A stretch of 64,000 nt of DNA from Aquimarina spinulae (lineage in GTDB: Bacteria > Bacteroidota > Bacteroidia > Flavobacteriales > Flavobacteriaceae): NCBI RefSeq assembly GCF_943373825.1, contig NZ_CALSBP010000002.1, positions 3,151,501 to 3,215,500 on the forward strand, in the 5' to 3' direction. The notes under the pieces are model-generated. The model had not been told where the DNA came from. It saw only the letters and a program-made list of their open reading frames with translations, and ran no database searches. Within the stretch, counting starts at the first letter, position 1; the number at the start of each line of letters is the position of its first letter. Made by a program: the position numbers and the translations under genes. Shown here piece by piece: positions 8,117-64,000 of the stretch.

Positions 8117-9645
8117 GCTATTTGTTTTGTGATTTTATAAATCAATTCTTCTTGCTCGAAGGGTTTGGCTATAAAGTCATCCATTCCGGATCGTATACAT
8201 TTATCTCTGGCTACATCATTAGCTTTACCAGAAAAACCAATAATAGGTACTTCAGAAATAAATTTATCTCCATAATTGTTTCGGATCATATGCGTGGCCT
8301 GATATCCATCGATTTTAGAAACGGTAAGATCCATTAAAATCAAATCATATTTGCGTCGTTCGATATAGTTAATAGCTTCTTCGCCATTAATAGCAATATC
8401 GACAAAAAAGTTACCTTGTGAGATCAATACCTTCATAATTAGATATTGTGTTATTTCTTCATCTTCTACGACCAGGATTCTATATTTGGTTGCACTTTTT
8501 GGCAATTTATATTTTTTCTTTTTTCGTGCTGGAGTCGTTTTTATGATCTCAAATTTAAATGGGAGTTTTATATTAAATGTGGTTCCTTTTTCTGGCTCAC
8601 TGGTTACTTTTATTTCTCCATTTAAAAGATCTACCAGGTTTTTTACTATTGCTAGCCCAAGACCAGTCCCAGAAATTCGTTTGTCGAGATCAAAACGAGT
8701 AAATCGTTCAAAAAGATAGGGGATGTTTTCTTCCATAATCCCAATCCCGGTATCTTCAATTTTAAAATTAAGACTTAGCTTATTGGTACGTTGATAATTT
8801 TTGGTTACCGAAAGGATAACCTTTCCTTCTTCGGTAAATTTAAAAGCATTGGTTAGGATATTATTTAAAATCTGATATATCCTGGTTCTGTCTCCGATGA
8901 GATATTCCTGAATGCTGGGATCTATATTAGTCTCAAAAGTAATTTGTTTTTCTTCGGCGACCTTAGCATAAGATTCACGAAACCCATCTATTAAAGTATG
9001 AAAAGCAAAACGTTCTTCTACAATTTTTAGTTTTCCTGATTCTATTTTAGACAGATCAATCATATCGTCTATAAGAGCGTTAAGATGAAGACTTTCTCTT
9101 TTTATAATTCTGGCAAGTTCCTCTTGTTCGAAAGTTAGTTTGGTTTTTTCCAGGACTTCTACAAACCCTAATATACTTGTGAGAGGTGTTCTTATCTCAT
9201 GATTGATATTAGCAATAAAACTATTCTTAAATTCTTCTTTTTCCAGAAGATATTTGTTCTTAAGTTCGAGTTCTTTGGCTAATAAAATGGATTCATTTTT
9301 TTGCTGTGCTATTTGATTAAGGTCTTTATATTTCCCTGTATAATCAAAAAGAATAATTATGATTTCTTCTTTTTCAAGAGTAAATGTGATGTCGCAAATC
9401 TTTTCTATTTCACCATCTTCTAAGTGAATACAGGGAAAGTTTAATGCTTTTTTACCAGAAGAGGTGTTTTTTTCAAATTCTCGCAGGATTTCAAAAAATG
9501 GATGAGCATCAAAAATTAATGTACCTTCTTTCCAATTAAAAAAAGTATGATCACTTTCTGTAATGATATTATCATAAGTAACATGAATGATTTGTACTTG
9601 TGGATTAAATTGCGAATGGTCGTTTTGATGTTTCGTCATGCTCAC
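8098..9645 (-). CDS. Hybrid sensor histidine kinase with C-terminal receiver
   Basis: 515 residues. A PAS-like region (about 15-115) is followed by a short coiled coil, HisKA with the phospho-acceptor His149 in INHEIRTPL, HATPase_c with N box NAFKF and G boxes DTGIGI and GTGLGLAIV, and a receiver domain from about 390 with Asp439 in LILMDLT and Lys in FIAKPF. There is no signal peptide or transmembrane segment, so it is cytoplasmic. Its ATG overlaps the stop region of the Ras-like GTPase by 4 bp, which implies translational coupling and suggests that the kinase reads out or controls the GTPase. No DNA-binding output domain is present; the receiver may pass phosphate on or bind a partner. Confidence 0.92.
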   Translation of the reverse strand: MSMTKHQNDHSQFNPQVQIIHVTYDNIITESDHTFFNWKEGTLIFDAHPFFEILREFEKNTSSGKKALNFPCIHLEDGEIEKICDITFTLEKEEIIIILFDYTGKYKDLNQIAQQKNESILLAKELELKNKYLLEKEEFKNSFIANINHEIRTPLTSILGFVEVLEKTKLTFEQEELARIIKRESLHLNALIDDMIDLSKIESGKLKIVEERFAFHTLIDGFRESYAKVAEEKQITFETNIDPSIQEYLIGDRTRIYQILNNILTNAFKFTEEGKVILSVTKNYQRTNKLSLNFKIEDTGIGIMEENIPYLFERFTRFDLDKRISGTGLGLAIVKNLVDLLNGEIKVTSEPEKGTTFNIKLPFKFEIIKTTPARKKKKYKLPKSATKYRILVVEDEEITQYLIMKVLISQGNFFVDIAINGEEAINYIERRKYDLILMDLTVSKIDGYQATHMIRNNYGDKFISEVPIIGFSGKANDVARDKCIRSGMDDFIAKPFEQEELIYKITKQIAKKAAD

Positions 9646-49879: not shown

Positions 49880-49961
49880 GCTCGAGTGGCGGAACTGGTA
49901 GACGCGCTGGATTCAAAATCCAGTTCTTTCGGGAGTGTGGGTTCGATTCCCACCTCGAGTA
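49880..49961 (+). tRNA. tRNA-Leu (anticodon CAA)
   Basis: 82 nt. The acceptor stem GCTCGAG pairs with CTCGAGT (one G-U), the anticodon stem CTGGA/TCCAG encloses the loop TTCAAAA with anticodon CAA, a long variable arm (TTCTTTCGGGAG) marks a class II tRNA, and GTGGGTTCGATTCCCAC is the T arm. The discriminator is A, as leucine needs. No CCA is encoded. Confidence 0.96.
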
Positions 49962-49965
49962 CTAG

Positions 49966-51410: not shown

Positions 51411-51998
51411 ATGAATACAGCTAAACCTAATCAGACCATATACCCTAGAGTGGTATTGGAAAGAAGAAGAAAAAGAAATGAAAAAAACTGGTATATTTTT
51501 TATACCTCTCCACGCGCCGAAAAAATAGTATACAGTGATCTTTTGGCAAGAGAATATGATGCGTTTCTTCCATTAACAAGAACATTGAAAGTATGGAAAA
51601 ATAGACAGAAGAAACTTATAGAATCTCCACTTTTTCCAGGTTATATTTTTGTAAACACTAAAATGAGTGAGATTTATGATATCTCAAGACTTCCCAAAAT
51701 AGCTACATATATTAAATGTGGACAAAATCCTTCAGTCATTTCACCAAATGATATAAATACTATCAAAAAAATGCTATTACTTGAAGAAGATGTTTCTGTT
51801 GAAACTACTTTTTATGAAGGAGAACAAGTAAAAATTATTCATGGACCATTAACTGGTCACGAAGGCATTTTGGTAGAACAAAAAGGTAAAACAAGATTTG
51901 GGATTCGTCTCAAAGAAATAAACCATACCGTGTTTATTAATGTTTGTACCAATATTTTACAAAAAATAAATAGTTCCAATCCGGTTAAAGAAAGGTAA
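51411..51998 (+). CDS. NusG-family transcription antiterminator (LoaP/UpxY/RfaH-like)
   Basis: 195 residues. An NGN domain (about 25-130: NWYIFYTSPRAEKIVYSDLLAREYDAF split here, then SPLFPGYIFVNTKM and YIKCGQNPSVI) is followed by a KOW motif (about 145-180: GEQVKIIHGPLTGHEGILVEQKG). It is a specialised NusG paralogue of the type that lets RNA polymerase read long operons: RfaH in enterobacteria, UpxY for Bacteroides capsules and LoaP for Bacillus polyketide operons. Its place directly before a 10.5-kb PKS gene points to the same job. The start is fixed by a TTAAATA-ATG context repeated in the upstream units. Confidence 0.93.
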   Translation: MNTAKPNQTIYPRVVLERRRKRNEKNWYIFYTSPRAEKIVYSDLLAREYDAFLPLTRTLKVWKNRQKKLIESPLFPGYIFVNTKMSEIYDISRLPKIATYIKCGQNPSVISPNDINTIKKMLLLEEDVSVETTFYEGEQVKIIHGPLTGHEGILVEQKGKTRFGIRLKEINHTVFINVCTNILQKINSSNPVKER

Positions 51999-52260: not shown

Positions 52261-55200
52261 ATGATAGATAAAGAAATACTATTAGAATCAACAGAGTGTT
52301 ATCTAAAATCTCTTATATCCGAATTTACTCAAATATCAATCGGAGATAATTGTATATCTACTCCATTTCAGGAGTTAGGAATCGATTCGTTTCGTATTCT
52401 ACAGATTATCAAGAAATTAGAAGAAGAGTTCGGAACTTTACCAAAGACCTTACTTTTCGAAAATTTCAATATTGGTGATTTAAGCTATTATTTCGTTGAT
52501 AAATATGAAGAAGTACTAAGAGAGAAATTTAAGAAAGAAAAGAAAGATAGTGATCGAGCTGTACACTCTAATGAAGAATCATTAAATTCTATCGAAAAAA
52601 CTGCAAAAACAATTGATAATCAGTCTGATATATCTACGAGAAAAACTTCTATTCTTATATTAGAAAAAGAAACTAATAAACATCCAGAATTACTAAAGCT
52701 GGTAGAAAAACTATTTAACCAATATAAGAATGAAGGCTCTGCATCAAGAGGCACAAGAAATATAGCTCCTAATCTTTTTATTGGGGCAGAAAAAAAAGGA
52801 TATTTTAATTATAGTCGTTATAAGGATATCATACTAGTCTATAGTTATACAGGAGCCAAAGATTACCTATCTGTTATTACAGAAGAAATATATCAATACT
52901 GTATTAACAATAATTTCGAACTCAATCTTTTCACGGTCGATCAAGTAGAATCGATAGGAGGAGTTTTATTTACAACCACACCTTTTGGCGTTTTGTCAAG
53001 GGTAAATATAAAAGATTTCACGCTTCAAGGAAGCAAGATGCGTCGTTTACGATATCAGGTATCAAAGTTTGAAAGAGCAGGAAAATGTAGAACTGAGGAA
53101 TATCAAAATGGTTCTGACAAAAAGGTAGACAAAAATATTACCAGGATTATAGACGAATGGTGTGCGCCAAGAACAATGGTTAACCCACTCATTCATATAG
53201 TTAAAGAAGAAATTCTATCTGGTAACTTAAGTGCAGAACACAGGCTTTTTCTAACCTATCTCGACGATGCCCTGCAGAATGTAATTCTTATCTCAAAATT
53301 GTCATCAGAAGAGAATGGATATTTAATGGATTTAGAATTCTACCCAAAGGGGATGCCTCTGGGAGGATTAGAATTTGCAATTGTAGAGATTATCAAAATT
53401 TTAAAAACCGAAGAGCATTCTACTTTAAGTTTAGGAGGTACATATGGTTGTAAACTAAACTCTTCATCAAATGCAGATCCAGAATTAGATAAAACACTGG
53501 ATTATCTACGTGGGCAGAATATTTTTAATGATGAAGGAAATTTGCAATTCAAAAATAAATTCAGACCAGAACATAATACTGTATTTCTCTCCAGACCCGT
53601 AGGAAGCAATCCTGATAATGTAACCGATATTATTATGATGATTGCAGATCCGATGAAAATGCAAACTTCAGACGAAGAAAATCATACATTCACCAAATTA
53701 TATAAGCAAACCGCTACGATAGAACCAAAAACAGGAAAACAGGATACATCAAATGCAAATGGAGAGTTTAATCAGGTAAAAGAAAACCAACAAGAGGAGA
53801 AACATACAGTGGTGATTGAAGGAGAAGAGAGATCTGTTATGCTATCAGATTATGGTTATAACCCTTTAAATATTCCAGATGATCAGGTTACATTTGATCT
53901 AAAAACCGATTCGTGGGCCCAATTAGAGTTACCAGCTATTCAAAATCAGTTAGGCTTTTTATACACACAGTTGCAACAACCAGTTGATCTGGTCGAGAGT
54001 TTAAGAAGTATATTTCCTTTTTCTTATTTTACGTTAACCACTGCGGGCCGTACTGCAGAACGTGCTTTTTGTAAATCATGGCCTAAAAAAGGGAAAGTAC
54101 TTCAGAACCTGCTTTTTCCTACCATGATTTTTAATCAGATTGAAAATGGATTCAAACCAATAGAGTTACCACATCCAGAGGTATACAAGCTAGATTCTGA
54201 AGATCAATATAAAGGAAACCTAAATTGGGAAGCTCTTAAAAAACAAGTAAAAGAAGACACAGAGTCGATAGCTTTTGTTTTTATCGAAATGAATGATAAT
54301 GCTGCCGGTGGAGCTCCAGTATCCTTACAACATCTCAAACAAGTCAAAGCCTTCCTTTCAGAATACGCTATTCCTCTTGTTTTTGATACTACAAGAATTG
54401 TAGAAAATGCGTTATTTATCTTAGAACATGAAAACGAATTTACTGGGAAGAATGTCTGGGATGTAGTACGGGAAATGATCTCTTATGCAGATGCAATAAT
54501 TGCAAGTCTGGCTAAGAATTTTTGCGTAGATAAAGGAGGATTGATAGGTACCAATGATGTTGAACTTTACAATAAAATTCAAAACTTTATTCAGGAAGAA
54601 AGCATTGGGCTAGATGTAATCGATAAAAAAGTTATTGCGTTATCATTTCATAACAGAAATAAGATTGAGACTAAGGTTCGTAATAGATTACAATCTGTAC
54701 GCACAATCTGGAGGATTTTAAAACAACAAGAAATTCCTGTTGTACAACCCGCATTGGGGCACTGTATATTGATTGATGTTAAACAAATTCCTGAATTTAA
54801 ATTATTTGAGTACCCAGTGGCATCATTTGTATCCTGGTTATATTTAAATACAGGGATTCGTGCGGGAGCTCATAATGTAGGAATGCAAAAAGATACAGAA
54901 ATTAATAATCTGGTACGCTTAGCAATACCTGTAGGCTTAAAACAGGAAAAAATAGAGGAAATCGGTAATAGGTTGATTAAAGCCTTTAAGAAAAAAATTA
55001 ATATTTCTGAGATCTTACCAAAGGATAATCAATCAGAAATATTTGGTAATATACATACCAATTTCAAACTCAAAAAGTATCATAATACTTCTGGAGAAGT
55101 AGTTTCAAAAACACTCAATTCTGAAACCTCTTCAATAAATAACGATACTAATACTTCTGTTGCAGAAAGTAAAAGAAAATCTACCCAGATTGATTCAGAT

Positions 55201-58200
55201 ATTAAGGCAAAAGAAACAGGGGCGAATCAGAATATACATAGTGATAAGCCATACCAAACCGGTGATATAGCTATCGTTGGGATAGCCGGCCGTTATCCTA
55301 AGGCCAAAAACATGAACGAATTCTGGAATAACCTAACTCAAGGAAAAGATTGTGTCGAGGATATACCTGATGTTCGTTTTGGGCAACGCCTTCATAATAA
55401 GTTTTCAGAAAAATATCGAGGAGGTTTTATCGATGATATTGATAAATTTGATTCACTTTTTTTTAATATCTCTCCCAGAGAAGCTGAATATCTGGATCCT
55501 CAAGAAAGACTTTTTCTTGAAGTGGCCTGGGAAGCAATCGAAGACGCTGGTTATTACCCAGAAACATTAGTAGATGACAATGCTTCCCGAAATATAGGGG
55601 TTTATGTAGGAGCTGTGTGGACACTTTATCAGGTAATCGGTACAGAAGAAAAGCTGCAAGGGAATTTTGTTAGCCCCAGTTCACATTTATGGGGTATTGC
55701 TAATCGGGTATCGTACGCTTTTAACCTTTCTGGCCCGAGTTTACCTATAGACACAGCTTGTTCCTCAAGTTTAAGTGCATTATATCTAGCTTGTGAAGCA
55801 ATCTATAAAGGAGAATGCTCTGGTGCCATTGTAGGAGGAGTTAATCTTGACGTGCATCAAAGTAAAATAGACATTAATAAAAGTGGGGGAGCACTTTCGG
55901 CAGATGGCGTATGTCGTACCTTTGGTAAAGGTGCTAATGGCTATGTAGCTGGCGAGGGCGTAGGTGCAGTTTATATTAAACCTCTTGATAAAGCAGTAAA
56001 AGACGGAGATCATGTGTATGGAGTGATTAAAGGTATTGCCGTTAATCACGGAGGAAAAACAAGTGGATTTATGGTACCTAGCCCTAAATCACAGGCAAAA
56101 GTAGTTACTACCGCATTAGAAAATGCTAAGATCGACGCACGAAGCATTGGTTATATCGAAGCACACGGAACAGGAACCGAACTTGGTGATCCTATCGAGA
56201 TTTCTGGTTTAACTACAGCTTTTCAGGAATATAATGTAGATAAACAAGAATGCTCTATAGGTTCGGTAAAAACCAATATCGGACACCTTGAAGCCGCAGC
56301 TGGTATTGTAGGATTACACAAGGTACTCTTGCAAATGAAATATAGAAAACTAGTACCTTCTTTGCATTCTTCTGAGTTAAACCCTTTTATCGATTTTGAA
56401 AATTCTCCATTTTATGTCGAGCAAAAGATTAAAGAATGGAAACCTAAGACAATTGAAGGTGTTCAGTACCCGCTTCGAGCTGGTATTAGTTCTTTTGGAG
56501 CTGGTGGAGCGAATGCACATGTTATCATTGAAGAATATGTAACTCCGATTGAAGAAGAAAAAACACCATCTTCAAAGTATAAGGAATATATCTTTCCGCT
56601 TTCGGCTAGAAATGAAGATCAACTTCAGAAAACAGCAACTCGTTTGTGTGCATTCCTTCAGGATGATTTGTCTGCAGAAAAACTACTTGCTTGTAAAGAT
56701 ATTGCGCATACTTTACAAATAGGAAGAAAATCTTTTGATCATCGCCTGGTTATAATTGCAAAAACGAAGAAAGAACTGGTTCAAAAACTTACTTTATTTA
56801 TTGATGGTAAGCAAGATAATGCGATGCTTGTCGGAGAGGTAAAAAGTAGCCAAAATATTACACGTTTATTAAACCGTAAAGAAAAAGAAGAATTTATTAA
56901 ATTCCTGTCACAGAGTGGAGATCTAAGTAAGCTAGCACAACTCTGGAGTGTTGGATTTCTTGCAGATTGGCAAGGAGTACAAAACCTAGAAGCAGGAGCG
57001 AAGATTTCTTTACCAACGTATCCTTTTGCAGATAAAAGACACTGGATTTCTGATATTTCAAAATCATCCAACCTTAGCTTGCATTCAACTACTGCTCTTC
57101 ATCCATTAATCGATTCTAATGAATCAACATTCGAAAGACAGGTTTTCAAAAAAACCTTTCACGATAAGGATTTCTTTATATACGATCACTTGGTATCTGA
57201 AATTCCTACTCTACCCGGTGTTGCTTATCTGGATTTTGCACGTAAAGCAGGAGAGTTGGCAACCGGAAGAAAGGTTCAAATAATTAAAAATATTCTCTGG
57301 TTAAGTCCACTCACTGTAGTTGATTCGGCCCCCAGAGAGGTGTGTATAGAATTAAAACCTAACGGAGGGTTAGTACATTTTGAAGTATTTAGTGAAGAAG
57401 AGAATAATACAAAACAAATATATTCGCAAGGAAAACTTATATATGCAACTCATCAGGAATTAACTGCAGAACCCGAATATATTGATTTAGAAGAGATTCG
57501 TACAAGATGTGCAAAAGTTACCCATGGAAAGGAAGCGTATCCACTTTTTAAATCATTAGGACTAGATTTAGGACCTAGTTTTCAAGTGCTTCAGGATATT
57601 TTCAAAAACGATGATGAAATATTGGGTGAGCTTCTTATTCCGGAAATCCGAAACAATGATTTTAATGATTACTTGCTCCATCCTTCGCTTGTAGATGGTT
57701 CTTTTCAGGCAGGTATGGCAGCACAACTAGGAGCGCAAACAGGTGAAATGTTCGTACCCTATTCAATCGGTGAAGTCGAAGTTTTACAACCGCTGAAACC
57801 AAAATGTTTTAGTTATGTCAAAAAAGTAGATGATCCAGGATCAAAGGTTTCCAAAGTGAATGTTTTTATTGTGGATGAGGACGGAATGATACTTGTAAAA
57901 ATCAGAGAATCTATAGGAGTTCCACTGGTTAGTGTTCACGAAAAACCAGATCAAATTAAAGAAGAAGAGGAATATTCAAAATTATATTACTCTCATGAAT
58001 GGGAGAAATCTCCTTTAGAACAAGAAAAAGTATTAGCTAATGAATCAGGGTCTATTTTACTTTTTAGCCCAGATGAAAAACTCCAAAAAGTTTATAAGGA
58101 TCGTTATAAAAAGGATGCAGATATTATACTGATCGAACCTGGAGATAGGTATAAGAAATTTGGAAACCATAGATATAAGGTCAATCCGAAAAATCCAGCA

Positions 58201-61200
58201 GATTTTAAGAAGCTTTTTGAAGCTTTGAATACAAATATCATCAAAAAAATATGCTTTGCCTGGCCGATAGGTGATGAGTTAAAAGACGATGACGAATATA
58301 ACGAAGGTTTTATCGAGAAATCTTTTGATAATGGAATTTATTCATTCCTTATTCTCTGCCAATCTTTGATAGAGCAAAAACTAGACAATGTTCAATTATT
58401 ATATCTGTATTTGGGGCAAATAGATGCTACCCAACCACATCATGAAGCGATAAATGGCTTTGCTAAAACCCTTCAGATGGAGCATCCAAAATTGTATTGC
58501 AGGATTCTAGAAATCCAGCAATCAAAGAATTCTTATGATAAAATTCTGGATATAGCTTTAACCGAATTACATTCTGATAATTCTAACGAAATGACTATTC
58601 GTTATCGGGAAGAAGAACGTTATATCAGAAAAGTAAAAGAGTTTTCTTTACTTCAGGATAAAGATTCTGACACGATTGATAGTTTTGGGCTAAAAGAAAA
58701 CGGAGTATATATTATTACTGGTGGTGCAGGAGGATTGGGACTTATATTTGCAGAATATTTAGCAGCTCAATGTAAAGCACGGTTAGTACTTACCGGAAGA
58801 TCGAAACTCTCAGGTGAACGTAAAACCAAACTAGATAAATTAAGTGAAGCTGGTGCAGAAGTAATGTATATACCAGCAGATGTTTCGATATCTAAAGATG
58901 TAGAGAACCTGATTAAGGAGACCAAATCGAAGTTCGGAGAAATTAACGGAATTATTCATAGCGCTGGTGTTATAAGAGATTCATACATAAGGAATAAAAC
59001 ACGTGAAGAAATGGAAGCGGTTTTTGCTCCCAAAGTGTACGGAACGTTTTATTTGGATAGCGTAACCAAAGATGAAGATCTGGACTTTTTTGTAACGTTT
59101 TCATCTCTTGCAGCTGTCGGAGGAAATGCAGGGCAGTGTGATTATTCGTTCGCAAATCACTTTATGGATTCCTTTGCAGAGAAACGTAAATTCTTACAGG
59201 AAAAAGGAGAAAGATCAGGAGTGTCATTAAGCCTTAATTGGTCTTTATGGGCAGATGGTGGAATGAAGTTGGATGAACAAACTGAAATTTTCTTTAAAAA
59301 GAATCTGGGGATAAAACCTTTAAGTATCGAAACTGGCCTGGAAGCATTTGAAAAAGGCCTTCATACCAAAAAAGCACAATTTGTTGTATTAGAAGGAGTA
59401 CAGGAAAAAATAGAACGAGCCTGGGGTATTAAGGAGAAGGAAGCTCCAGAAGCTGGAACAACAGACACCGAAACTTCAACAGACTCCGAAGTACAGGTAG
59501 ATCAACAAGCAGATAAAGAATTATTTACAATGGTTCGTAATGCATTATCCGAAATTGTTATGGAGATGTTGAAACTGGATCCGGAAGATATTTCGTATGA
59601 TAAGATATTATTGGATTTAGGGTTTGATTCTATAGGTTTGACAACTTATGCAAACAGGATCAACGAACTTTATGAATTGGATATCACTCCGGTACTCTTT
59701 TTTGAATATCCATCAATTAAAGAAATAGCAACATTCCTCTCCAGAGAACATAAGAATGAAGTACAGAAAACTCATAAAGTTTCAGGAGGTGCTTCTTCCT
59801 CTGATACCAGGAAAGAAGTTAGTCAATCGACAAAAGGAAAAGAGCAACAACCAGATACGGAAAAAGGCATATATAGTATCAATAAAGGGTGGAATGCAAG
59901 TGCATTGGATCCACAATCTCAATCTTCAGGAGTAGAACTATCTACAGAAAGCCGTTTTATAGATCAACCGATTGCTATAGTGGGTATGAGTGGAGTTATG
60001 CCAGGGTCGGAAAACCTGGAAGAATTCTGGGAAAACCTAGAGAATGAAAAAAACTTAATCACTGTGATTCCTGAAGATCGATGGAATTGGGAGGATTACG
60101 ATGGAGACCCCTTTAGAGAGAAAAATAAAACCAATTCTAAATGGGGAGGTTTTATGAGTGACGTAGATAAATTCGATCCTTCATTTTTCGGTATTTCTCT
60201 TAGAGAAGCCGAAATGATGGATCCGCAACAGCGAATATTTTTAGAAACAGTATGGAAAGCTATTGAGGATTCGGGACATAAAGTTTCTGATCTATCGGGT
60301 ACCAAAACTGGACTATTTGTTGGAGTAGCAACAAGAGATTATGCCGATTCACTAGTAGATAATCAAATTCCGCTTGACGGATATACTGCCTCAGGAAACT
60401 CGCATTCTGTATTGGTTAACCGGGTTTCCTTCCTGTTAAATCTTCGAGGACCAAGTGCTCCGCTGGATACAGCGTGTTCCAGTTCTTTGATTGCAGTTCA
60501 TAGAGCAATAGAATCAATACATACTGGGAGTTCTGATATGGCTATAGTTGGGGGAGTACAGTTAATGCTTACACCCGCAGCTTATATATCATTTGGAATG
60601 GCAGGTATGTTAAGCGGCGATGGTAAGTGCAAAACCTTTGACAAGAGTGCAAATGGATATGTAAGAGGAGAAGGCTCAGGAGCTATATTTCTTAAGCCTC
60701 TGGATAAGGCAGAAGCCGATAGAGATCATATTTATGCCGTTATTAAAGCAACTACCGAAAATCACGGAGGGAAGGTTACCATGCTTACAGCACCTAATCC
60801 TGTAGCCCAAACTGATTTGCTTGTCGAAGCTTATGAAAAGGCTCATATTGACCCCTCGACAGTTGGATATATCGAATGCCACGGTACAGGTACCAGTTTG
60901 GGAGACCCTATTGAAATTCAGGCGTTGAATAAAACATTTTCAGAATTATATAAAAAACATGATAAAGTTCCTGCAAAAACTCCCCACTGTGGTTTGTCTT
61001 CGGTAAAAACTAATATCGGCCACCTGGAGACGGCAGCCGGAATAGCAGGAGTACTGAAAGTACTACTATCTCTTAAACATAAAAAAATACCAGCAACGCT
61101 TCACTTTGAAGAACTTAATCCATATATCAATCTTAAAGATAGCCCACTCTACATTGTAGATAAAACACAAAATTGGGAGGTTATAAAGGATGATCAGAAT

Positions 61201-62811
61201 AACACTCTACCAAGAAGAGCGGGAGTAAGCTCGTTTGGTTTTGGAGGCGCAAATTCACATATCGTTTTAGAAGAATATATTCAGGAAGAAGACCATTCAC
61301 AAGTTCAATCTGATGAACCACATATCATTGTACTTTCAGCAAAAACTGAAGATCGACTTAAAACATATGCTCAATTATTATATAACCACGTAAAAAAACA
61401 TAATATTAATCTTACTGATCTTGCTTTTACACTTCAGGTAGGAAGAGATGAGATGGATGAACGATTGGCACTGGTAGTACTTTCGATTGAAGAACTGAAA
61501 GAAAAACTTTCAGACTACCTAAGTCAAAAAGAAAATCTAGAAGATATTTTCTATGATAGAATTAAACAAAATAGTGCAGCTGTAATAGACTCCACAGAAA
61601 ATAATGACTTCTCAGAGAACCAGATAAATAAGTATATTAATGATAAGAATTATTCTAAGCTAGCCAAAGCTTGGGTAATGGGTATTGAGATAGACTGGGT
61701 ACAATTTTATGAACAAGTAAAGCCAAGACGTATTAGTTTGCCAACATATCCTTTTGCTCGTGAAAGATACTGGTTTAATTTGGCCGATAGTGAAAAATTG
61801 AAATCTGAAGGAGAATTTGAAAAACTTCATCCGTTGTTACATTATAACTCCTCTACACTAAGTCAGCAATGTTATACTTCTATTTTTAGTGGTAAAGAAT
61901 TTTTTGCAAAAGATTATAAGATACAACAGCAAGATGTAATGCCTTTTACTGCTTGTTTAGAAATGGCATATGTAGCAGTAAAAAATGCAATGCCAGATCT
62001 TAATGAATCTACATCTCTGGAATTACGAAATACTTCTTGGGTAGACCTGCTTGTACTTAAAGAAAGTAAAGAAGTCAATATATCTCTTTTTGAAAATGAT
62101 TATAAAGGAGTTGACTATGAAATTTATAGTACAGAAGGAGAAAAAGAAATAATTCATTGCCAGGGAGAAGTTGCCATGGGAGCAAATCAAACTTCAACAA
62201 AGATTGACATAGTACAACTTAAAACTCATTTTGCAACAGAACCATTGGATGCAGAAAAACTTTATCACATTTTAAAGCAAATGGATATGAGTTATGGTCC
62301 TTCTTTTAAAGGAATAAAAAACTTTTATAAAGGAGAAGATCAGATCCTTGCTCTATTAAGGTTACCAGAAACTATAGTAGACGATTATGAAAACTATACT
62401 CTTCATCCGAGTATGCTAGAGAGTTCGTTGCAATTGGCAATCGGTTTATTAACCGATCTGGATCCGAAATTAAAGCAACCCATATTACCTGTTGAAATAG
62501 GATCTATGAAGTTATTTTCTCCTTGCCAAAAAGAATTATATGCCTGGGTGCGATACTCAAAAGGAAGTAAACCAGAAGATGATATAGTGAATATAGATAT
62601 TGACCTCACGGATGTATCAGGAGAGATATGTATTAAAATAAAGTCTTTGTCATTCGATAACTCCTTACATAAGCAGTCTAGTAAAAATTCACATAAGGAT
62701 TTTGAAATATTAATAAATGCCATACAGAATTATGATTTAAACCAAACAGAATATACTGATACAGAAGATCACACTGTAAGTTTTGATAAATTATTAAAGG
62801 ATGTATACTAA
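52261..62811 (+). CDS. Giant trans-AT polyketide synthase with unusual loading region
   Basis: 3,516 residues. Domain order by sequence reading: ACP (about 10-80, Ser43 in GIDSFR); DUF2156/MprF-C-like domain (about 165-465, VNIKDFTLQGSKMRRLRY, then LMDLEFYPKGMPLGGLEFAI); tryptophanase-like PLP lyase (about 520-915: GRTAERAF, Asp709 and Arg712 in FDTTRIVENALF, Schiff-base Lys752 aligned with TnaA Lys270); KS1 (about 1002-1428, Cys1167 in DTACSSSL, EAHGTGT, NIGHLEAAAG); a docking-type linker; DH1 (about 1610-1890, His1643, Asp1812); KR (about 1930-2330, TGGAGGLG, Ser-Tyr-Asn set in FVTFSSLAAVGG and CDYSFANH); ACP2 (Ser2457); KS2 (about 2566-3008, Cys2739); DH2 (about 3190-3480) with Tyr3219 and Glu3387 in place of the catalytic His and Asp. 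No acyltransferase is present, so malonyl units must come from a free-standing AT. It ends without an ACP, so module 2 continues on the next protein. Confidence 0.92.
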   Translation: MIDKEILLESTECYLKSLISEFTQISIGDNCISTPFQELGIDSFRILQIIKKLEEEFGTLPKTLLFENFNIGDLSYYFVDKYEEVLREKFKKEKKDSDRAVHSNEESLNSIEKTAKTIDNQSDISTRKTSILILEKETNKHPELLKLVEKLFNQYKNEGSASRGTRNIAPNLFIGAEKKGYFNYSRYKDIILVYSYTGAKDYLSVITEEIYQYCINNNFELNLFTVDQVESIGGVLFTTTPFGVLSRVNIKDFTLQGSKMRRLRYQVSKFERAGKCRTEEYQNGSDKKVDKNITRIIDEWCAPRTMVNPLIHIVKEEILSGNLSAEHRLFLTYLDDALQNVILISKLSSEENGYLMDLEFYPKGMPLGGLEFAIVEIIKILKTEEHSTLSLGGTYGCKLNSSSNADPELDKTLDYLRGQNIFNDEGNLQFKNKFRPEHNTVFLSRPVGSNPDNVTDIIMMIADPMKMQTSDEENHTFTKLYKQTATIEPKTGKQDTSNANGEFNQVKENQQEEKHTVVIEGEERSVMLSDYGYNPLNIPDDQVTFDLKTDSWAQLELPAIQNQLGFLYTQLQQPVDLVESLRSIFPFSYFTLTTAGRTAERAFCKSWPKKGKVLQNLLFPTMIFNQIENGFKPIELPHPEVYKLDSEDQYKGNLNWEALKKQVKEDTESIAFVFIEMNDNAAGGAPVSLQHLKQVKAFLSEYAIPLVFDTTRIVENALFILEHENEFTGKNVWDVVREMISYADAIIASLAKNFCVDKGGLIGTNDVELYNKIQNFIQEESIGLDVIDKKVIALSFHNRNKIETKVRNRLQSVRTIWRILKQQEIPVVQPALGHCILIDVKQIPEFKLFEYPVASFVSWLYLNTGIRAGAHNVGMQKDTEINNLVRLAIPVGLKQEKIEEIGNRLIKAFKKKINISEILPKDNQSEIFGNIHTNFKLKKYHNTSGEVVSKTLNSETSSINNDTNTSVAESKRKSTQIDSDIKAKETGANQNIHSDKPYQTGDIAIVGIAGRYPKAKNMNEFWNNLTQGKDCVEDIPDVRFGQRLHNKFSEKYRGGFIDDIDKFDSLFFNISPREAEYLDPQERLFLEVAWEAIEDAGYYPETLVDDNASRNIGVYVGAVWTLYQVIGTEEKLQGNFVSPSSHLWGIANRVSYAFNLSGPSLPIDTACSSSLSALYLACEAIYKGECSGAIVGGVNLDVHQSKIDINKSGGALSADGVCRTFGKGANGYVAGEGVGAVYIKPLDKAVKDGDHVYGVIKGIAVNHGGKTSGFMVPSPKSQAKVVTTALENAKIDARSIGYIEAHGTGTELGDPIEISGLTTAFQEYNVDKQECSIGSVKTNIGHLEAAAGIVGLHKVLLQMKYRKLVPSLHSSELNPFIDFENSPFYVEQKIKEWKPKTIEGVQYPLRAGISSFGAGGANAHVIIEEYVTPIEEEKTPSSKYKEYIFPLSARNEDQLQKTATRLCAFLQDDLSAEKLLACKDIAHTLQIGRKSFDHRLVIIAKTKKELVQKLTLFIDGKQDNAMLVGEVKSSQNITRLLNRKEKEEFIKFLSQSGDLSKLAQLWSVGFLADWQGVQNLEAGAKISLPTYPFADKRHWISDISKSSNLSLHSTTALHPLIDSNESTFERQVFKKTFHDKDFFIYDHLVSEIPTLPGVAYLDFARKAGELATGRKVQIIKNILWLSPLTVVDSAPREVCIELKPNGGLVHFEVFSEEENNTKQIYSQGKLIYATHQELTAEPEYIDLEEIRTRCAKVTHGKEAYPLFKSLGLDLGPSFQVLQDIFKNDDEILGELLIPEIRNNDFNDYLLHPSLVDGSFQAGMAAQLGAQTGEMFVPYSIGEVEVLQPLKPKCFSYVKKVDDPGSKVSKVNVFIVDEDGMILVKIRESIGVPLVSVHEKPDQIKEEEEYSKLYYSHEWEKSPLEQEKVLANESGSILLFSPDEKLQKVYKDRYKKDADIILIEPGDRYKKFGNHRYKVNPKNPADFKKLFEALNTNIIKKICFAWPIGDELKDDDEYNEGFIEKSFDNGIYSFLILCQSLIEQKLDNVQLLYLYLGQIDATQPHHEAINGFAKTLQMEHPKLYCRILEIQQSKNSYDKILDIALTELHSDNSNEMTIRYREEERYIRKVKEFSLLQDKDSDTIDSFGLKENGVYIITGGAGGLGLIFAEYLAAQCKARLVLTGRSKLSGERKTKLDKLSEAGAEVMYIPADVSISKDVENLIKETKSKFGEINGIIHSAGVIRDSYIRNKTREEMEAVFAPKVYGTFYLDSVTKDEDLDFFVTFSSLAAVGGNAGQCDYSFANHFMDSFAEKRKFLQEKGERSGVSLSLNWSLWADGGMKLDEQTEIFFKKNLGIKPLSIETGLEAFEKGLHTKKAQFVVLEGVQEKIERAWGIKEKEAPEAGTTDTETSTDSEVQVDQQADKELFTMVRNALSEIVMEMLKLDPEDISYDKILLDLGFDSIGLTTYANRINELYELDITPVLFFEYPSIKEIATFLSREHKNEVQKTHKVSGGASSSDTRKEVSQSTKGKEQQPDTEKGIYSINKGWNASALDPQSQSSGVELSTESRFIDQPIAIVGMSGVMPGSENLEEFWENLENEKNLITVIPEDRWNWEDYDGDPFREKNKTNSKWGGFMSDVDKFDPSFFGISLREAEMMDPQQRIFLETVWKAIEDSGHKVSDLSGTKTGLFVGVATRDYADSLVDNQIPLDGYTASGNSHSVLVNRVSFLLNLRGPSAPLDTACSSSLIAVHRAIESIHTGSSDMAIVGGVQLMLTPAAYISFGMAGMLSGDGKCKTFDKSANGYVRGEGSGAIFLKPLDKAEADRDHIYAVIKATTENHGGKVTMLTAPNPVAQTDLLVEAYEKAHIDPSTVGYIECHGTGTSLGDPIEIQALNKTFSELYKKHDKVPAKTPHCGLSSVKTNIGHLETAAGIAGVLKVLLSLKHKKIPATLHFEELNPYINLKDSPLYIVDKTQNWEVIKDDQNNTLPRRAGVSSFGFGGANSHIVLEEYIQEEDHSQVQSDEPHIIVLSAKTEDRLKTYAQLLYNHVKKHNINLTDLAFTLQVGRDEMDERLALVVLSIEELKEKLSDYLSQKENLEDIFYDRIKQNSAAVIDSTENNDFSENQINKYINDKNYSKLAKAWVMGIEIDWVQFYEQVKPRRISLPTYPFARERYWFNLADSEKLKSEGEFEKLHPLLHYNSSTLSQQCYTSIFSGKEFFAKDYKIQQQDVMPFTACLEMAYVAVKNAMPDLNESTSLELRNTSWVDLLVLKESKEVNISLFENDYKGVDYEIYSTEGEKEIIHCQGEVAMGANQTSTKIDIVQLKTHFATEPLDAEKLYHILKQMDMSYGPSFKGIKNFYKGEDQILALLRLPETIVDDYENYTLHPSMLESSLQLAIGLLTDLDPKLKQPILPVEIGSMKLFSPCQKELYAWVRYSKGSKPEDDIVNIDIDLTDVSGEICIKIKSLSFDNSLHKQSSKNSHKDFEILINAIQNYDLNQTEYTDTEDHTVSFDKLLKDVY

Positions 62812-62826
62812 AGGAAAGATAAGGTC

Positions 62827-64000
62827 ATGATAGCAATCGACGATATATTGGAAAAAATTGTTTCAAAGGAAATAGAGAAGAAAGAAGCTTTAAGATTCTT
62901 TGAAGAATTACCCGAAAAAGAGAAAAGTTATTTGGTTTCTAAACTAAAAACGCATTTATCAAATAATGCTAACTCGGTTGAGAATAACTTTTCTGAAAAA
63001 AAAGATAATACACTTAAAGCAGTGACCGAGCTTCAGTTAAATGAAGAACATAAGGGATTCATTGATCAAATGGCTCAGAAACTGGAAAAAGTTGCATCAA
63101 AATCCAAAGAAAATGCATCTAAGTGCCAGGAGTATTTTGTAGATCAAAGAAGAACCGGAGGATTAAAAAAAGCGTTAAAACGCTTACAATTTCATCTAAC
63201 GTATAGCAAAGGTGATGGGGCATATCTTTATGATATTGATGGTAATAAATATATTGATATCGCTAGTGATAATGGAGTTAACTTATTTGGTCATCAACCA
63301 GACTTTATAAAAGAAGCTATCTCAAAGCGGTTGGATAAAGGGTATCCTTTGGTAGGGTATACAGAAGAGCTTTCTCAGGCAACCAAACTTTTTAGTGAAC
63401 TCACGGGCCATGAAAGAGTGCTCTTTACACAATCTGGTACAGAGGCAGTTATGTGGGCAGTAAGAATTGCTCGCGCAGCTACTCAAAAGAAAAAAATAGT
63501 AATTTTTGAAGGAGCGTATCATGGATTATCTGATACAGTACTTGCAGCCAAAGATCAGTTTGGTAATAGCATAGCAATGGGACTGGGAATGATCCAGGAA
63601 TTTGCCGATGAGCTTATTGTACTGGATTATGGAAATATGGATGACCTGAGTATCATTGAAGATAGAGCAGATGAGATTGCTGGGATTTTGGTAGAACCAG
63701 TACAATCTAGAAACCCGAATAATCAACCTGTTGAATTCTTGAAAGAAGTGCGTAAGCTAACACTCGAAAAGAATATCCTGTTGATTATGGATGAAATGAT
63801 CACCGGATTTAGGGCTTCTAGTAGTGGAGTACAGGGGCTTTGGAAGATTAAAGGAGACCTTGCTACCTATGGAAAAATCCCTGCAGGAGGAATGCCTTCG
63901 GGAATGATTGCCGGGCTTACCAAATACATGAATTATGTAGACGGAGGAACATTTGACTATGATGATGAATCGATGCCCAGTGTTAAAAAAGCACTTATGG
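62827..64000 (+). CDS. Polyketide synthase with N-terminal class III aminotransferase domain (partial)
   Basis: The frame opens at the ATG at 62827, 15 bp after the previous stop, and runs past the end of the window (391 codons visible). Residues 1-70 are a helical docking-like region (DDILEKIVSKEIEKKEALRFF). From about 130 a class III aminotransferase follows: FTQSGTEAVMWAVRIA, EGAYHG, LVEPVQSRNP, IMDEMITGFR and the lysine region YGKIPAGGMPSGM. PKS-embedded aminotransferases of this type (as in mycosubtilin and iturin) put an amino group on the beta carbon of a carrier-bound beta-keto chain. It follows a KS-DH protein with no ACP, so the ACP for module 2 is expected further downstream. Confidence 0.9.
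   Translation, partial: MIAIDDILEKIVSKEIEKKEALRFFEELPEKEKSYLVSKLKTHLSNNANSVENNFSEKKDNTLKAVTELQLNEEHKGFIDQMAQKLEKVASKSKENASKCQEYFVDQRRTGGLKKALKRLQFHLTYSKGDGAYLYDIDGNKYIDIASDNGVNLFGHQPDFIKEAISKRLDKGYPLVGYTEELSQATKLFSELTGHERVLFTQSGTEAVMWAVRIARAATQKKKIVIFEGAYHGLSDTVLAAKDQFGNSIAMGLGMIQEFADELIVLDYGNMDDLSIIEDRADEIAGILVEPVQSRNPNNQPVEFLKEVRKLTLEKNILLIMDEMITGFRASSSGVQGLWKIKGDLATYGKIPAGGMPSGMIAGLTKYMNYVDGGTFDYDDESMPSVKKALM

Follow-up and report, generated by a model that had tools for sequence, protein, structure and literature searches.

A split leinamycin-type DUF-SH module in an Aquimarina polyketide synthase that may draw its sulfur from cysteinyl-tRNA

The window analyzed here is a stretch of 64,000 nucleotides from Aquimarina spinulae (NCBI RefSeq assembly GCF_943373825.1, contig NZ_CALSBP010000002.1, positions 3,151,501 to 3,215,500 of the forward strand), and the gene under study (52261..62811, + strand) encodes a trans-acyltransferase polyketide synthase (trans-AT PKS) of 3516 aa. 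Its open reading frame and domain map give the order ACP-DUF-SH-KS-DH-KR-ACP-KS-DH: an acyl carrier protein (ACP), a "DUF" domain and a lyase (SH) domain, followed by ketosynthase (KS), dehydratase (DH) and ketoreductase (KR) domains. The three-domain block at its start is the DUF-SH didomain of leinamycin-type PKSs, already described, and not a starter-unit loader. The explanation that we hold to be probable, with real reservations, is that of a split leinamycin-type DUF-SH module whose DUF most likely takes (thio)cysteine from aminoacyl-tRNA. Read from the sequence itself are the identity of the domains, the KS-DH terminus of one half and the ACP that opens the other, the separate loader, the residues binding pyridoxal phosphate (PLP), and the tRNA genes with their place and their loss of U33.

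The DUF-SH didomain completes a split module

Ahead of the first KS (residues 1009-1430), the first-pass annotation of this DNA had recognized an ACP, a DUF2156/MprF-C-like domain and a tryptophanase-like lyase with intact PLP residues, and profile searches bear this out. The ACP occupies residues 5-82 (52273..52506, + strand; motif LGIDSF), the DUF residues 165-465 (52753..53655, + strand) and the SH domain residues 519-925 (53815..55035, + strand). Both catalytic domains clear their curated Pfam cut-offs: LPG_synthase_C (PF09924) at residues 173-443 (E 4.7e-16; 59.2 bits against 27.5) and Beta_elim_lyase (PF01212) at residues 575-864 (E 4.1e-22; 79.3 bits against 27).

Among Protein Data Bank (PDB) sequences, the lyase matches 9CEN best (190.5 bits; the best tyrosine phenol-lyase reaches 151.8 bits), the thiocysteine lyase (SH) domain of guangnanmycin. 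The same entry ranks first in Foldseek with the AlphaFold model of ACP-DUF-SH, a model of mean pLDDT 52.7 in which the SH part alone is usable. Six residues—K752, D709, R712, N680, R597 and R886—are invariant in 13/13 sequences of alignment A2, among them the three PLP residues named at first pass (D709, R712 and K752); the site of the acid Tyr71 of tyrosine phenol-lyase shows no such conservation. We take K752 to be the PLP lysine and R886 to be the counterpart of tyrosine phenol-lyase Arg404, which binds the free alpha-carboxylate. Because R886 is kept throughout, a (thio)cysteine adduct fits the active site better than an amino acid bound to the ACP via its carboxyl group, which is how the first-pass annotation had pictured the substrate. 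On residue conservation, SH is predicted to cleave a (thio)cysteine adduct to -SSH or -SH.

The context of the didomain emerges from the cluster, mapped over 100 kb from the window gene onward in the window genome (G000). The window protein is followed by a 589-aa aminotransferase, a 1265-aa protein of the order ACP-KS(inactive)-ACP-TE (TE, thioesterase), transport and oxidoreductase genes, PKS proteins of 6151, 3533, 4749 and 4617 aa, and then sulfur and beta-branching genes. The ends of these proteins meet within modules: the 6151-aa protein closes with KS-DH and the 3533-aa protein opens with KR-ACP; the 3533-aa protein closes with KS-DH and the 4749-aa protein opens with KR-ACP; the 4749-aa protein closes with KS and the 4617-aa protein opens with DH-KR-ACP; and the window protein closes with KS-DH and the 1265-aa protein opens with ACP. 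The 4617-aa protein finishes in KS-DH with no ACP, and the window protein starts with ACP-DUF-SH. From these fits we infer the order of the proteins and the transfer of the chain between them; judged by the same ends, ACP-DUF-SH completes a trans-AT module divided between two proteins, KS-DH/ACP-DUF-SH, late in the assembly line.

The arrangement is not peculiar to A. spinulae. A PKS protein ending in KR-ACP-KS-DH without an ACP is found together with an ACP-DUF-SH start in 7/7 non-actinobacterial clusters mapped (A. spinulae, Aquimarina AU58, Fulvivirga marina, Massilia Root335, Steroidobacter, and the genomes G1051 and G1102), and the KS triad and the DH His and Asp of that end are intact in all seven as well as in RhTr2. 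KS-DH ends occur on further proteins of some of these clusters, for instance those of 4249 and 5055 aa in Steroidobacter, and the complete set of ends was worked through for G000 only. The DUF-SH protein itself ends in a TE in two of the seven clusters and in a thioester reductase in two others.

Relatives of the window protein were collected with residues 130-940 as query, in a search that detects proteins of 0.55-1.75 times the query length and thus leaves the giant leinamycin-type proteins outside the count. At E<=1e-3, 448 database proteins match, so the DUF-SH arrangement is not a product of chance. Among the 120 matches listed and the query, the order DUF-SH-KS-DH is kept in 121/121, and directly ahead of the DUF one ACP was detected in 119, two in one and none in one. 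The C-terminal ends of these 121 proteins include a TE in six and a thioester reductase in nine.

Two features would suit the role first proposed for the block, that of a PKS loading region whose N-terminal ACP receives an amino acid, to be converted into an unusual starter: a KS stands ahead of the DUF in 0/121 of the proteins just described, and the DUF belongs to a family that uses aminoacyl-tRNA. The cluster holds a separate loading module, however, as the 6151-aa protein opens with an LnmK-family acyltransferase/decarboxylase (TIGR04098, 171.6 bits, cut-off 100) and an ACP. This loader, together with the KS-DH ends that lack an ACP in all seven clusters, argues that ACP-DUF-SH is not a loading region; the didomain is moreover internal in leinamycin-type clusters, and its lyase retains the carboxylate-binding Arg. 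We therefore regard a loading role as very improbable.

Nor is the domain set new: the first-pass annotation knew of no described assembly line with this arrangement and had named an earlier description as refuting its proposal, and for the set of domains such a description exists. A tblastn search of plasmid records returned four actinobacterial matches (88-98% query coverage, 36-38% identity), three of which, H1, H3 and H4, were read. Each of these leinamycin-type clusters includes an LnmK-family protein, an HMG-CoA synthase and a gene for a carrier protein, and in each the PF09924-lyase pair recurs behind a KS, within an open frame of 6.9-7.7 k residues; in two of them a carrier was detected between that KS and the DUF. 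The statement that the leinamycin SH domain lies "at a different place" overlooks that the unit is the same one. Identity to the window protein is 33-35% over ACP-DUF-SH (the ACP being partly cut in 2/3 rows), and the DUF taken alone is 38-43% identical to its leinamycin-type counterparts.

The DUF belongs to the family of MprF

PDB matches of the DUF at E<=10 number 11. Six are named MprF or aminoacyl-phosphatidylglycerol synthase; three further matches over the same region are LpiA, a pH-regulated protein and a hypothetical protein; and the remaining two are acid ceramidase, with E of 1 or more. The DUFs of the three leinamycin-type clusters match PF09924 too (59.9-67 bits, E 1.9e-18 to 2.7e-16). 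By profile, then, the "DUF" matches the aminoacyl-tRNA-using LPG_synthase_C family, including in leinamycin-type clusters—an assignment that is new here. MprF enzymes take aminoacyl-tRNA as donor (PMC8131360), and the first pass was, in our judgment, right to connect an MprF-type domain with aminoacyl-tRNA.

The likeness to MprF and to Pseudomonas aeruginosa A-PGS is a family match across about 270 aa. DUF K431, invariant in 13/13 sequences of alignment A2, aligns with K840 of A-PGS and with the equivalent Lys of RtMprF in the alignments shown. The equally invariant D357 aligns with the Asp of the DLMR motif of RtMprF and lies one residue off in the A-PGS alignment. D765, R768 and K840 of A-PGS, numbered from chain position, are residues of importance in that enzyme. 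The acceptor of MprF and A-PGS is a lipid, whereas the DUF sits in a PKS and its acceptor must be an acyl-ACP.

Cysteine tRNA genes at a conserved place in the cluster

The G000 cluster contains two tRNA-Cys(GCA) genes found by ARAGORN, at C2:3295212-3295287 and C2:3295343-3295418, between a cluster acyltransferase gene and a metallo-hydrolase gene. Both are outside the window, about 80 kb past its end, and ARAGORN gave no further tRNAs in the five 20-kb pieces of G000 read. A genome-wide search, in which 150 of 439 first-look candidates were scored, gave 44 tRNA genes, all typed; the only other tRNA-Cys among these 44 is a housekeeping gene with U33 at C2:2598089.

When copy 1 was used as a BLAST query against the 13 DUF-SH genomes then known, nine gave full-length matches. 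Within the genus of the window, DUF-SH occurs in 9/66 genomes, and a full-length tRNA match (best match at least 93 bits) occurs in the same nine; the other 57 comprise 16 with a partial match, never above 42.8 bits, and 41 without any. Eight of these nine appear, from their shared contig positions, to be genomes of the 13-genome BLAST, and the ninth, G566, has a single full-length match and stands outside the 11 genomes read for place and base 33. In a family sample of 149 genomes, one per genus, G000 alone shows a full-length match. Two further DUF-SH genomes, G1051 and G1102, hold two tRNA-Cys genes each at the conserved cluster place, and cluster-type tRNA-Cys genes are present in 12/13 Bacteroidota DUF-SH genomes. 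DUF-SH itself is sparse: G000 is its only carrier in random samples of 395 genomes of the phylum and likewise of 395 of the order, and it occurs in 3/390 genomes of the order of Fulvivirga, F. marina itself among them.

The place is closely kept. The tRNA-Cys genes stand directly before the metallo-hydrolase gene in 11/11 genomes read, with the acyltransferase gene on the other side in 10 of them (the Fulvivirga contig begins there), and the tRNAs at this place are all Cys, in two or three copies per cluster, in 11/11 clusters. They have the GCA anticodon, a U73 discriminator and an intact cloverleaf. GCA and U73 are identity elements for cysteinyl-tRNA synthetase (CysRS), and U33 is nearly universal in elongator tRNAs. 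At least one tRNA-Cys copy is without U33 in all 11 genomes read: C33 marks a second tRNA type in Aquimarina, RhTr2 and Fulvivirga (10 sequences, nine genomes), and G33 is found in both copies of G1051 and G1102, all four genes being identical. All 55 other distinct tRNAs of the loci retrieved (39 non-Cys and 16 Cys, including the U33 cluster copies; ARAGORN matches with four-base anticodons left out) have U33. The stems of the second type are largely kept: two of 21 pairs have both partners changed in one or more sequences, and two are broken in one sequence each. The loss of U33 speaks against a decoding role, and the copies lacking it are probably unfit for translation. That Bacteroidota clusters carry their own tRNA-Cys genes, some of them probably of this kind, suggests that the module takes cysteine from tRNA; combining this genetic linkage with the family match, we infer that the DUF uses (thio)cysteinyl-tRNA as donor.

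A tRNA sequence type unique to DUF-SH clusters was considered and rejected: matches of 78-88% (E<=1e-6), many of full length, occur in 64/394 other genomes of the phylum, and the four such genes read are all tRNA-Cys with U33. As related tRNAs occur elsewhere, the signal lies in place, copy number and base 33, not in sequence type.

Two observations on tRNA-like sequences may be recorded alongside. Two Fulvivirga species have tRNA-like pairs whose anticodon loops are eight bases long (read by ARAGORN as the four-base anticodons cttc and ctgg), one at L014:8259-8333 and 8338-8411, about 1.6 kb upstream of the DUF-SH gene, and one at L016:1606-1680 and 1686-1759, 4.1 kb upstream of it. By eye, an apparent decayed third copy follows the two tRNA-Cys genes in L144 (below 15,085, minus strand) and in L155 (after 4,959).

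Evidence against tRNA use, and the alternative of free thiocysteine

Several observations weigh against a tRNA donor. The first concern distribution: BLAST found only the housekeeping tRNA-Cys copy in the draft genome of F. kasyanovii, the exception among the Bacteroidota, and gave no match to the Bacteroidota tRNA in the Massilia, Steroidobacter and Peristeroidobacter genomes, perhaps because their tRNAs are too divergent. ARAGORN gave no tRNA in the stretches read of Massilia (79 kb), Steroidobacter (90 kb) and Peristeroidobacter (23 kb), nor in three Streptomyces/Kitasatospora clusters, over 42 kb surrounding DUF-SH and, for one of them, a further 49 kb, and Rfam gave none in the scanned parts of proteobacterial and actinobacterial clusters. 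These clusters would have to rely on a housekeeping tRNA. The Aquimarina clusters share descent, so the 9/66 correspondence shows linkage, not function, and in each of the nine C33 genomes the other copy in the cluster keeps U33. The DUF itself has no Arg at the MprF R768 position in either PDB alignment, the correspondence of D357 with the MprF Asp depends on the alignment chosen, and the AlphaFold model of the DUF alone (pLDDT 38) is unusable; of the structure predictions proposed at first pass, then, the lyase part yielded a usable model with 9CEN on top and the DUF part did not.

These points lend substance to an alternative in which the block is the same DUF-SH sulfur module but the DUF adds free L-thiocysteine, as proposed for leinamycin, and the tRNA-Cys genes are passengers, decaying copies or translational. 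Conjugate addition of thiocysteine via the DUF is a published proposal (PMC7618002), and cystathionine gamma-lyase (CGL) can provide free thiocysteine (PMC8479088), which itself counts against the need for a tRNA. The empty stretches of three proteobacterial and three actinobacterial clusters and the missing Arg fit this alternative readily. It accounts poorly for tRNAs that are all Cys and present in two or three copies at a conserved place in 11 clusters, and for the loss of U33 from one copy or more although most stem pairing is preserved, a loss that argues against decoding. We consider it a serious possibility, though clearly not the likelier outcome.

A proposed mechanism and its sulfur supply

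For the tRNA-dependent module that we favor, the following course is plausible. The chain would be handed from the 4617-aa protein to the first ACP of the window protein; the DUF would draw (thio)cysteine, most likely from aminoacyl-tRNA, and attach cysteine or thiocysteine to the chain on the ACP at its beta carbon; SH, as a PLP beta-lyase, would cut the cysteinyl C-S bond and leave a thiol or hydropersulfide on the polyketide; and the following modules would extend the sulfur-bearing chain. If SH needs a free carboxylate, the tRNA ester would have to be cleaved between the DUF and SH steps, a step that the scheme does not supply. Protein order and chain transfer, tRNA use by the DUF, an S-S as against an S product, and the making of the beta acceptor are the parts of this scheme that we have reasoned rather than read.

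The scheme does not account for the beta acceptor either, since the DH of the module looks intact but a KR is absent. A non-elongating KS0, or dehydrating bimodule, was tried as an explanation for the missing KR and found no support, the KS keeping its C-H-H residues in all eight clusters examined; the KS-KR-ACP-KS-DH order nonetheless resembles a dehydrating bimodule.

The DUF might instead aminoacylate, placing cysteine from Cys-tRNA onto the acyl chain or the ACP arm, with the thiol then shifting to the beta carbon and the product being S rather than S-S. Acyl transfer from aminoacyl-tRNA is the family's normal chemistry (PMC8131360), and SH domains do cut cysteine adducts as well, 50- to 106-fold less efficiently (PMC8479088). 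The preference of characterized SH domains for thiocysteine adducts in the same work, and the free-carboxylate Arg kept by the lyase, make this route unlikely in our estimation.

As to the supply of sulfur for a tRNA-drawing DUF, CysRS can make and load cysteine persulfide. The genome has one clear cysS, far from the cluster, and no private CysRS appears among the named cluster genes. NifS-like (406 aa) and SufS-like (664 aa) genes follow the 4617-aa gene in G000 and the corresponding genes of AU58 and Fulvivirga, and are present on the contigs read of Aq78 and RhTr2. Cysteine desulfurases were rejected as a general sulfur source, the stretches of Massilia, Steroidobacter, G1051 and G1102 having yielded none with the same queries; that the pair occurs in only part of the clusters tells against the scheme.

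After the last PKS gene, outside the window, lies a row encoding a C_GCAxxG_C_C protein, a NifS-like desulfurase, a small SAM methyltransferase and a SufS-like desulfurase (L025:1601-6502; G000:C2:3285101-3290002). The same gene order recurs in Aquimarina AU58 and Fulvivirga, and it possibly represents a sulfane-sulfur supply with a persulfide methyltransferase.

More broadly, we lean, if only slightly, towards the view that the DUF of all DUF-SH PKSs is tRNA-dependent and takes (thio)cysteine from cysteinyl-tRNA, with Bacteroidota having evolved a U33-less private tRNA-Cys that the ribosome uses poorly. Were this so, aminoacyl-tRNA would supply a building atom to a polyketide assembly line, for which we know of no precedent, and the clusters would be one of the few examples of tRNA genes reserved for secondary metabolism. 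Charging of the private tRNA-Cys with thiocysteine by CysRS would, in addition, explain the origin of an intact S-S unit. The occurrence of tRNA-Cys genes beside an MprF-family PKS domain makes the question of the DUF simply testable, with CysRS, tRNA and one protein.

Other features of the window and the cluster

Downstream of SH in the window protein, the first KS (55285..56550, + strand) has an intact C-H-H triad, and the DH-KR-ACP of the next module (56896..59760, + strand) has a DH with intact His and Asp. The second KS and C-terminal DH (59992..62553, + strand), a DH without His and Asp, are probably served by the ACP that opens the 1265-aa, TE-terminated protein. A class-III aminotransferase gene (62827..64000, + strand; L033), encoding the 589-aa product, runs beyond the window and stands between the window PKS and the TE protein, beside the inactive DH and a KS without His residues; together these suggest a product with a beta-amine near its carboxyl end. 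The 6151-, 3533- and 4749-aa proteins (L028, L030 and L031) contain modules for beta-branching, in each of which three crotonase-like (ECH) stretches in tandem precede one or two ACPs.

Upstream of the cluster, a tRNA-Leu(CAA) gene (49880..49962, + strand), also present in L010, L011, L012 and L017, stands outside the proposed mechanism. Between it and the PKS gene lies a gene for a NusG-like protein of 195 aa (window 51411-51998), perhaps a specialized antiterminator for the long operon.

The cluster can be connected to a named product. In Aquimarina sp. Aq78 (L012), ACP-DUF-SH is 88% identical to that of the window, and the genome gave 14 RhiE-type KS linker matches, of which contigs C15, C21 and C32 hold 13 and C4 the last, which falls below cut-off; we take the three contigs as one trans-AT set containing this ACP-DUF-SH. 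The cuniculene trans-AT PKS cluster of Aquimarina sp. Aq78 was reportedly described by Helfrich in 2019 in Nat Chem Biol. Cuniculene is named as a trans-AT polyketide of Aq78, and RhTr2 (L013) as a carrier of the same cluster family, in passages of PMC9323603 and PMC9860996. From the identity, the linker matches and the published family naming, we conclude that the window holds a cuniculene-type cluster.

Comparison with known systems

DUF-SH clusters have been surveyed before. Meng 2021 (PMC8479088) counted 109 of them in four families and established their SH domains as thiocysteine lyases that prefer thiocysteine adducts, and left the role of the DUF open. A 2024 Angew paper (PMC7618002) describes other non-leinamycin DUF-SH modules as having one ACP and no TE, and the leinamycin order as KS-ACP-ACP before the didomain. 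The word "tRNA" does not occur in the main texts of either paper. In a literature search that excluded most subscription papers and supplements, no work tying leinamycin to cysteinyl-tRNA was found; none naming thiocysteine, leinamycin and guangnanmycin together also covered aminoacyl-tRNA or phosphatidylglycerol lysyltransferase; and tRNA-dependent steps combined with Cys-tRNA, polyketide synthase and biosynthetic gene cluster led only to work on 3-thiaglutamate.

The leinamycin, guangnanmycin and weishanmycin PKSs share with the window protein the two domains DUF and SH in the same order. Compared with them, the window module is split over two proteins, has one ACP, and contains a DH but no KR; its SH is followed by a KS instead of a TE, and the Bacteroidota clusters add tRNA-Cys genes. 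Pfam scans of the G000 cluster proteins gave no nonribosomal peptide synthetase (NRPS) domains. The nearest natural-product enzymes to draw cysteine from Cys-tRNA are the TglB-type peptide aminoacyl-tRNA ligases of 3-thiaglutamate biosynthesis, which, unlike the DUF, are LanB-related and ATP-dependent and act on a peptide acceptor (PMC9016710).

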